Source of the DNA: Streptomyces natalensis ATCC 27448
GTDB lineage: Bacteria; Actinomycetota; Actinomycetes; Streptomycetales; Streptomycetaceae
Direction: 5' to 3'
DNA: 64,000 nt
Assembly: GCF_000935125.1 (NCBI RefSeq)
Contig: NZ_JRKI01000063.1
Span: 1-64,000 of the forward strand
Shown here in pieces: positions 60,682 through 62,838 of this stretch (position 1 is its first letter; every line of letters starts with the position of its first letter). The notes under the pieces were generated by a model. That model had not been told where the DNA came from. It saw only the letters and a program-made list of their open reading frames with translations, and made no database searches. Made by a program: the position numbers and the translations under genes.

Positions 60682-60969
60682 GTGAGTAGCCCCAAGTTCG
60701 CCACGCTCCGCTACACCGCCCTCCGGATCGGTCTCTTCCTCGCGTCCTTCGCCGTGGTGTGGGTGCTGGCCTACTTCCGGATCATCCCGATCGCCGTCGC
60801 CGGCTCCAACTTCGTCTGGCTGCTGCTGCTGGCCATCGTGATCTCCGCGCCGCTCAGCTTCGTGCTGCTGCGCAAGCAGCGGGATGCGATGTCCGAGCAG
60901 ATCGTGGCCAAGGTCGACCGCCAGCGCGAGCGCCTCACGGCCAACCGCAGCTCGGAAGACGACCTCTAG
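60682..60969 (+). CDS. DUF4229 small membrane protein
   Basis: A 95-aa protein with two hydrophobic helices (about 12-30 and 42-62) and a coiled, charged C-terminus (QRDAMSEQIVAKVDRQRERLTANRSSEDDL). GTG 60682 has AAGG 8 nt upstream; GTG 60628 is a longer alternative. Its last codons and stop start an array of 11-bp repeats. Function unknown. Confidence 0.85.
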   Translation: MSSPKFATLRYTALRIGLFLASFAVVWVLAYFRIIPIAVAGSNFVWLLLLAIVISAPLSFVLLRKQRDAMSEQIVAKVDRQRERLTANRSSEDDL

Positions 60970-61012
60970 ACGACCTCTGGACGAGCTGTAGACGACCTCT
61001 GGACGACCTGTA
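60958..61012 (+). repeat. Five 11-bp tandem repeats of the DUF4229 gene 3' end
   Basis: GACGACCTCTA, GACGACCTCTG, GACGAGCTGTA, GACGACCTCTG, GACGACCTGTA. The first unit supplies the last two codons and most of the stop of the DUF4229 gene. Unit length 11 bp, so reading frame is not kept. Confidence 0.92.
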
Positions 61013-61060
61013 AGGGACAGCAGCGCGGCGTGTAAGACGCCTCACACCAAGCCTTGCGCC

Positions 61061-61112
61061 GTAGGCGCCCGGTAGGGGAGAACCCCCAACTACCGGGCGC
61101 CTACGGTTTTTT
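61061..61112 (+). terminator. Strong intrinsic terminator
   Basis: A perfect 15-bp stem, GTAGGCGCCCGGTAG (61061-61075) with CTACCGGGCGCCTAC (61090-61104), 14-nt loop, then GGTTTTTT. It is the only classic stem-plus-T-run terminator in this window. Confidence 0.95.
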
Positions 61113-61146
61113 CGGCCCTTTTCCGGCAGTCCGGTGACCTGCCCAA

Positions 61147-61190
61147 CCCAAAGATTCTCTTTGGGTCTCTCAAAGTTTGAGTGTTAACGT
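61147..61190 (+). promoter_or_regulatory. Promoter and operator-like dyads of the leader-peptide/symporter unit
   Basis: CCCAAAG-ATTCT-CTTTGGG (61147-61165) is a perfect 7-bp dyad overlapping the possible -35 TTGGGT (61161-61166). A second dyad CTTTG...CAAAG (61159-61175) shares its right arm. TAACGT (61185-61190) is a likely -10, 7 nt before ATG 61198, which predicts a leaderless leader peptide. Confidence 0.7.
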
Positions 61191-61197
61191 ATTTCTC

Positions 61198-61302
61198 ATG
61201 AAGACAGCAGCCGCGCCCCCGTTCCCCATGAGCGTTCCGCTCGTGGCGCGCCTGCACGTCGATCTTTGCCGCTGTCTGTCCGCGGCCTGTCGCCGCGTCT
61301 GA
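61198..61302 (+). CDS. Cys-containing leader peptide (attenuator type)
   Basis: A 34-aa peptide (24 aa if started at ATG 61228) ending in RLHVDLCRCLSAACRRV, with three Cys codons near its end. The RxHVDL...SAxC pattern is the actinobacterial leader-peptide family linked to cysteine-dependent attenuation of sulfur genes. It lies 156 nt before the symporter gene. No Shine-Dalgarno precedes ATG 61198, in line with a leaderless transcript. Confidence 0.85.
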   Translation: MKTAAAPPFPMSVPLVARLHVDLCRCLSAACRRV

Positions 61303-61337
61303 CCTTCCCGTCATCGGCGGCCGGAGATCCCGACAGA

Positions 61338-61370
61338 ACTCCCCCACCCTCCGGGCGGGAGGTACCCCCA
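61338..61370 (+). repeat. Streptomyces intergenic C/G-rich repeat
   Basis: A stretch starting ACTCCCCCACCCTCCGGGCG and ending GGTACCCCCA, resembling the short palindromic repeat scattered between Streptomyces genes. It lies in the untranslated leader between the leader peptide and symporter start, followed by a TTCGCAGC direct repeat. Confidence 0.6.
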
Positions 61371-61458
61371 TTCGCAGCTGCTTCGCAGCCGCTCGACCTC
61401 CCGGCGCGTTCCGCACGCCACACCCCTCAAGCCTTTCCTCTCCACCGGAGTGTTTCCG

Positions 61459-62838
61459 TTGTCCTCATCCCCGTCTCCCCAGGCCGCCCCGAAGGGGTCG
61501 CGCATACCCAAGGTCCCGTTCTGGGTCCAGATCCTGGCCGGCCTCGCCGTCGGCGTGCTGCTCGGCTGGGCCGCCAAGAGCAATGACCTCGGCTGGCTCA
61601 CCTCGACGCTCCAGCACATCGGCGACCTCTTCGTCCAGCTGCTGAAGCTGGCCGTCGCCCCCCTCGTCTTCTTCGCGATCCTGGTGTCGATCACCAACCT
61701 GCGGCAGGTCAACAACGCCGCCCGGCTCGCCACCCGCACCCTGCTGTGGTTCATGGCCACCTCGCTGATCGCCGTCGCGATCGGCCTGGCCATCGGCCTG
61801 CTCACGCACCCCGGCGCGGGCACCGGCCTGACCCCCAAGGACGGCAAGCTCCCGGACCACGCCGGTTCCTGGATCGACTTCCTGACCGGCATCGTCCCCA
61901 CCGACGTCATCACGCCGTTCACCGAACTGAACGTCCTCCAGATCGTCTTCATGGCGGCGGTCGCGGGTATCGCCGCCCTCCAGCTCGGCGAAAAGGCCGA
62001 ACCCATACTGAAGATCAGCCGCTCGGCCCTCGAACTCCTCCAGAAGGCCCTGTGGTGGGTCATCCGCCTCGCCCCGATCGGCACCGTCGGCCTCATCGGC
62101 AACGCCATCGCCACCTACGGCTGGAACCTGATCGGCAAGTACGCGACCTTCACCGTCGACGTCTACCTCGGCTGCGCCCTCGTCCTCTTCGGCGTCTACC
62201 CGCTGCTGCTCTCGACCGTCGCCAAGGTCAACCCGCTCCAGTTCTTCCGCGGCGCCTGGCCCGCCATCCAGCTGGCCTTCGTCTCCCGCTCCTCGGTCGG
62301 CACCATGCCGGTCACCCAGAAGGTCACCGAACGCCTCGGCGTACCGCGCGAGTACGCCTCCTTCGCGGTGCCGTTCGGCTCGACGACCAAGATGGACGGC
62401 TGCGCCTCGATCTACCCAGCCATCGCCGCGATCTTCATCGCCCAGATCTTCGACGTCCACCTCAGCATCGCCGACTACGTCCTGATCGCCTTCGTCTCGG
62501 TCATCGGCTCCGCCGCCACCGCGGGCCTGACGGGCGCCACGGTCATGCTGACCCTGACCCTCTCCACCCTGGGCCTGCCCCTGGAGGGCGTCGGCCTGCT
62601 GATGGCCATCGACCCGATCCTGGACATGATGCGGACGGCTACGAACGTTGCCGGCCAATCAGTCATCCCCATCCTGGTCTCGGCCAGGGAGAAGATCCTC
62701 GACCGCGAGGCGTTCGCCCGCGCGACCAGCATCCGCATCGGCGAGACCGAGCCGACCGAGCTGTCCGAGCCGACCGAATCGACCGAGCCGTCCGAGCAGA
62801 ACGCGACGACGGCCCCGGTTCCCGTGGCTGCGGGCTGA
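61459..62838 (+). CDS. Dicarboxylate/amino acid:cation symporter (DAACS family)
   Basis: A 459-aa membrane protein with about eight helices and two re-entrant loops. The serine-rich loop SRSSVGTMPVTQ and the motifs AVPFGSTTKMDGCASIYPAI and DPILDMMRTATNVAGQ are DAACS/GltP features. TTG 61459 has GGAG 8 nt upstream; GTG 61450 is a longer start. The C-terminus is a TEPTE repeat tail. The upstream Cys leader suggests cystine rather than glutamate uptake, as in TcyP of the same family (inference). Confidence 0.91.
   Translation: MSSSPSPQAAPKGSRIPKVPFWVQILAGLAVGVLLGWAAKSNDLGWLTSTLQHIGDLFVQLLKLAVAPLVFFAILVSITNLRQVNNAARLATRTLLWFMATSLIAVAIGLAIGLLTHPGAGTGLTPKDGKLPDHAGSWIDFLTGIVPTDVITPFTELNVLQIVFMAAVAGIAALQLGEKAEPILKISRSALELLQKALWWVIRLAPIGTVGLIGNAIATYGWNLIGKYATFTVDVYLGCALVLFGVYPLLLSTVAKVNPLQFFRGAWPAIQLAFVSRSSVGTMPVTQKVTERLGVPREYASFAVPFGSTTKMDGCASIYPAIAAIFIAQIFDVHLSIADYVLIAFVSVIGSAATAGLTGATVMLTLTLSTLGLPLEGVGLLMAIDPILDMMRTATNVAGQSVIPILVSAREKILDREAFARATSIRIGETEPTELSEPTESTEPSEQNATTAPVPVAAG

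Follow-up and report, generated by a model that had tools for sequence, protein, structure and literature searches.

A conserved Cys-codon leader ORF upstream of a DAACS symporter in Streptomyces suggests cysteine-responsive control of amino-acid uptake

In the window analysed here, a stretch of 64,000 nucleotides from Streptomyces natalensis, a short leader ORF that carries Cys codons towards its end lies directly upstream of the gene for a symporter of the DAACS superfamily (Table 1). We propose that this ORF, translated from a leaderless mRNA, senses charged tRNA-Cys and thereby controls an uptake symporter for a sulfur amino acid, a model that we consider probable as a whole. Comparison of the locus with its relatives makes control of the symporter by cysteine very likely, and our best guess is that the symporter takes up cystine or a sulfur amino acid related to it.

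Table 1. Sequence features of the leader–symporter locus, in window coordinates
Feature	Position	Strand	Remarks
Triple half-site dyad CAAAG-N6-CTTTGgG-...-CTCAAAG	61148..61175	+	Conserved in upstream alignment; putative operator/activator site
−10 element TAACGT	61185..61190	+	7 nt before leader ATG; predicted leaderless start
Leader peptide ORF	61198..61302	+	34 aa, MKTAAAPPFPMSVPLVARLHVDLCRCLSAACRRV
5′ arm GATCTTTGCCGCTG	61261..61274	+	Covers D-L-C-R-C codons; pairs with 61315-61329 in MFE and consensus folds
3′ arm CGGCGGCCGGAGATC	61315..61329	+	Non-coding element past leader stop; conserved within otherwise variable spacer
CCTCCGG, candidate partner of Shine-Dalgarno region	61348..61354	+	MFE fold
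Shine-Dalgarno GGAG of symporter	61447..61450	+	Conserved as GGAGTGTGTCCGTTG in relatives
DAACS/SDF symporter	61459..62838	+	459 aa, TTG start; Pfam PF00375, E 6.6e-106

Results

The leader ORF and its conservation

The leader ORF runs for 34 codons, from an ATG at 61198-61200 to a TGA at 61300-61302, and the encoded peptide ends in RLHVDLCRCLSAACRRV. Its Cys codons (TGC, TGT and TGT) stand near the end of the short frame in the arrangement C-R-C...C, with no contiguous Cys run; runs of CC to CCCC occur in the leaders of many relatives. The best library matches of the peptide are NCBIfam NF042934 (‘putative leader peptide', cis_reg_atten; E 7.9e-5, 22.2 bits, below the curated cut-off of 27, with 17 of the 19 profile positions aligned) and NF042936 (the Ms4527A leader; 18 bits, under the curated cut-off of 45). 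The NF042934 score of the window leader in the genome search, 21.1 bits, is also below the cut-off. An Rfam scan of 60900-61600 returned one miRNA match only, at chance level.

By our count, 139 of the 199 Streptomyces genomes have an orthologue of the symporter. For the survey of leaders upstream of orthologues that the earlier note had proposed, 80 named loci were used, the best 80 of 555, all of them from Streptomyces and biased to near relatives. A strict leader motif is present within 700 bp upstream of the symporter at 75 of these 80 loci and has no match elsewhere in them (0 in 569,293 bases, both strands), and a looser search, for a Cys-bearing frame with H-[VILF]-[DE], finds a leader upstream of 76. 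Two loci carry variant leaders with an intact frame, one with HVGLCRC (L032) and one with an insertion (L043); the leader is decayed in L081 and lost in Streptomyces fildesensis (L071), and L041, with just 95 bp upstream, was left out as non-evaluable. A leader is thus kept at 77 of the 79 evaluable best Streptomyces loci. A second sample, drawn against the bias of the first, comprises the 20 lowest-ranked full-length Streptomyces orthologues (identity 70–79%; species overlap with the first sample is possible); 18 of them are preceded by a leader, L212 and L214 being the two without. The leader of locus L211 carries a duplicated unit (CRCMSAICRCMSAPC...CCCA).

Leaders of this class also stand ahead of orthologues in several other actinobacterial genera. 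Among 15 actinobacterial members of the subfamily from outside Streptomyces, seven have one (L169, L170, L171, L180, L181, L182 and L199; that of L180, read by eye from the DNA, is RLYVDLRRQASGVC), two have a doubtful Cys-rich frame upstream (L167 and L168), and no leader was found upstream of L183, L184, L185, L186, L196 and L200, nor upstream of three alphaproteobacterial members. On these comparisons, the putative leader ORF upstream of the symporter is not due to chance.

Similar leaders elsewhere in the genome

A search of the 8.65-Mb genome with the pattern R.H[VIL]D[LF].R..[ST]..C gave seven matches, against zero for the reversed control, and the genome search with NF042934 yields eight matches with E < 0.005, the window leader included. 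The genes that follow the leaders of both sets comprise a MoaD/CysO-like gene with cysteine synthase (cysO-cysM) and genes of the NirA/sulfite-reductase, SsuA, SsuD, rhodanese and cysteine dioxygenase (CDO_I) types; such leaders also precede flavin reductase, GNAT and GST-like genes, which have no clear sulfur link. The genome search lists no NF042934 match on contig C61, the site of the symporter paralogue L002. The company that such leaders keep in this genome, together with the conservation described above, assigns the window leader to the actinobacterial cysteine type and bears out the claim of the earlier note that a leader of this type stands before a DAACS symporter.

A Cys leader of the class lies ahead of the cysteine dioxygenase-type gene (G000:C56:177046-177099; L162, L229), where starvation-induced control of a degradative gene would be odd. 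A second leader type, RDHIDFGRVWS.SC, precedes an SsuD-type monooxygenase gene and a GNAT gene (G000:C17:57425 and C17:205204; L115 and L116). A weak leader-like frame (13.7 bits; G000:C26:416736-416768; L165, L227) is found upstream of an amino-acid ABC importer. The ATPase of this importer resembles TcyN most closely, although below the TcyN cut-off; the importer, most like TcyN/FliY, is possibly a second cystine importer, and this weaker frame suggests that the leaders are not confined to sulfur assimilation genes.

Promoter and upstream dyad

A TAACGT-type −10 element placed 7 nt ahead of an ATG or GTG is present at 70 of the 80 loci, and that of the window fits the TAnnnT element given for S. 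lividans in excerpts of PMC8079986. This spacing points to a leaderless mRNA that would start at the leader ATG. That this is also the promoter of the symporter is indicated by natural deletions of the leader, each of which keeps the promoter in front of the symporter: in L071 and L212 leader and spacer are both gone and the symporter starts 7 nt past the −10 element, so that its own mRNA would be leaderless, and L214 lacks the leader and retains the Shine-Dalgarno (SD) sequence.

The dyad just upstream of the promoter is the sole occurrence of its sequence in the genome at up to three mismatches and is a putative site of a dedicated regulator. NdgR was considered as the factor and rejected, the motif given for it in excerpts of PMC4340878, [GT]T[CT]CAC...GGAC, being unlike CTCAAAG.

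Complementarity between the Cys codons and the spacer

Three blocks of the spacer are kept in 22 relatives of the window type, namely the complement of the D-L-C-R-C codons, the CCTCC block and the SD sequence. The Cys-codon helix is nearly invariant in the alignment of these 22 sequences, with zero compensatory pairs. Set against 200 shuffles per locus, the contiguous helix between the Cys arm and the spacer has no more than 2 equals in 40 of 99 loci and no more than 10 in 50 of them, counts that are taken over related sequences and are not independent. The contiguous helix of the window itself is unremarkable (55 of 200 shuffles are as good), and none is evident in the most divergent leaders. 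In the clade whose leaders read CRR...CCCC, it is instead the C-terminal Cys codons that the spacer element matches, at eight of the eight loci with a long enough spacer (two more, with too short a spacer, were left out); for each match, 10 to 29 of 200 shuffles do as well. Compared with those of shuffles, best-duplex energies have a median z of −0.3 (101 loci), and just 8 loci have no more than 10 equally good shuffles among 200, a null result that we think is due to the high G+C.

A switch that would release the SD sequence was modelled at 94 loci by comparing folds in the presence and absence of a stalled ribosome. Mean SD accessibility is about equal in the two states (0.209 versus 0.224), with eight loci up by more than 0.1 and three down (Wilcoxon p 0.035). 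As this gave no useful difference, the switch was dropped and the helix was kept.

The symporter forms its own DAACS clade

The symporter matches PF00375 with 355 bits (gathering score 27.9); an alternative in-frame GTG start at 61450 overlaps the SD sequence and is less likely. DctA and GltP of E. coli and the own-genome paralogue L002 belong to the same superfamily, and the closest relatives among solved structures are aspartate transporters. The subfamily of the symporter is a clade of its own (support 100/100) with the signature TTKMDGCASIYPA / DPILDMMRTATNV, and TTKMDGCA[AS]-[IVL]YP and one residue missing in HP2 are common to all 25 members aligned. Support is 85/36 for a split of the subfamily from TcyP and SstT, and a weak 81/92 for its join with TcyP when long rows are left out. 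These results do not place the symporter within TcyP: identity to E. coli TcyP (29.5%) is no higher than to other DAACS proteins, and the subfamily has a clade of its own. TcyP/YdjN and the symporter, both DAACS proteins, have in common SRSS in HP1, GCA-x-[IL]YPA with a one-residue insertion in TM7 and [DE]P..DM.RTA.NV in TM8, whereas TM7 has KMDG in the symporter and GQNG in TcyP/YdjN.

TM8 of the symporter reads D-x-x-R-T, as in GltP and TcyP, unlike DctA and L002, which cluster together and both have S-E-A-R-A. In GltPh, where the residues with known roles include R397, D394, N310 and T314, the TM8 Asp binds the amino group. Since this Asp is present in the symporter and replaced in DctA and L002, an amino acid is the likelier substrate than a C4-dicarboxylate. 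The gene neighbours of the alphaproteobacterial relatives that were examined give no clear substrate hint.

Across the whole subfamily, a Lys stands in TM7 where the NMDG motif has Asn. The corresponding residue of GltPh helps to bind Na+, and the coupling ion of the symporter may differ.

Discussion

The ORF, its conservation, the sulfur-gene company of such leaders, the promoter spacing and the complementarity of Cys codons and spacer are the observed parts of the model. Transcription would begin with the first base of the leader start codon, the A of ATG, and ribosomes would translate the leader at once. With ample cysteine they would move on past the Cys codons to the stop codon, the Cys stretch would pair with the conserved element that follows, and the symporter would be poorly made; with cysteine in short supply they would stall at the Cys codons, the pairing would be blocked and the symporter would be expressed. 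We infer the response to cysteine, the direction of control and the release of expression in this scheme, and also the substrate: the symporter would be an ion-coupled amino-acid importer, most likely supplying cystine or another sulfur amino acid that yields cysteine.

Loss of the leader in three relatives and its decay in one might suggest that the frame is a relic or arose by chance and regulates nothing, but its sequence and position are conserved across genera and the losses take leader and spacer and spare the promoter, which leaves such a reading hardly credible. A different question is how expression is controlled. In place of control at translation initiation, a finished leader might expose the C-rich spacer to Rho, with stalled ribosomes blocking termination; such a scheme rivals the mechanism and not the role of the leader. 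The spacer is C-rich and U-poor, no U-tract intrinsic terminator is seen by eye in the spacer alignment, the SD switch has no support from accessibility modelling, and Rho is put forward for the mycobacterial cys leaders in excerpts of PMC1262725. However, Rho would need neither the conserved spacer elements complementary to the Cys codons nor the CCTCC block that matches the SD sequence, and we regard Rho-dependent termination as less likely than not, if a serious contender.

As for the substrate, the Cys leader and the TcyP-like features of the symporter together point to cystine. The same Cys-responsive leader might instead serve an importer of glutamate/aspartate or of a broad range of amino acids, answering a general need or the glutamate demand of thiol synthesis. 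The residues of TM8, D-x-x-R-T-x-x-N, are those of acidic amino-acid transporters, in keeping with the aspartate transporters found as nearest solved relatives; yet the TM7 Cys with the one-residue insertion and the TM8 [DE]P are common to the symporter and TcyP and absent from GltP, and there would be no obvious logic in placing a glutamate importer behind a Cys leader. We consider this quite unlikely. Import of a relative that is oxidised or sulfonated, such as S-sulfocysteine or cysteate, or of another sulfur compound, in place of cystine would suit the annotation of E. coli TcyP as a cystine/sulfocysteine:cation symporter and the sulfonate genes among the leader targets of this genome, but those targets cover cysteine synthase too, and we rate it as unlikely. 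In a wider view, the symporter could found a second DAACS subfamily for cystine/organosulfur amino acids, separate from TcyP and spread over Actinomycetota and Alphaproteobacteria, with a Streptomyces RNA switch in which the Cys codons form one arm of a control helix that moves with them. This proposal is plausible, although we stop short of favouring it.

The model gives a testable substrate to a subfamily annotated merely as ‘dicarboxylate/amino acid:cation symporter', and it would widen the Streptomyces cysteine leader set from synthesis to uptake. The literature searches listed no earlier report of a Cys leader before a DAACS symporter, and none of the eight leader peptides in the reannotation of S. 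lividans is termed cysteine-dependent in excerpts of PMC8079986. Cys leaders of mycobacterial and other cys operons were predicted in PMC1262725, excerpts of which call the remaining attenuator parts missing; against these, the present locus offers conserved spacer elements. Mycobacterial Cys leaders are also discussed in excerpts of PMC4633059, and Canestrari et al. 2020 is cited in those of PMC9031893 and PMC13236596 for leaders that respond to cysteine. The window differs from the mycobacterial attenuators, as these texts describe them, in its target, a DAACS symporter, and in Cys codons set as C-R-C...C and not as a run. It resembles the mycobacterial polycysteine attenuators in its predicted leaderless-type start, its short ORF, its late Cys codons and a gene directly downstream with a probable link to cysteine.
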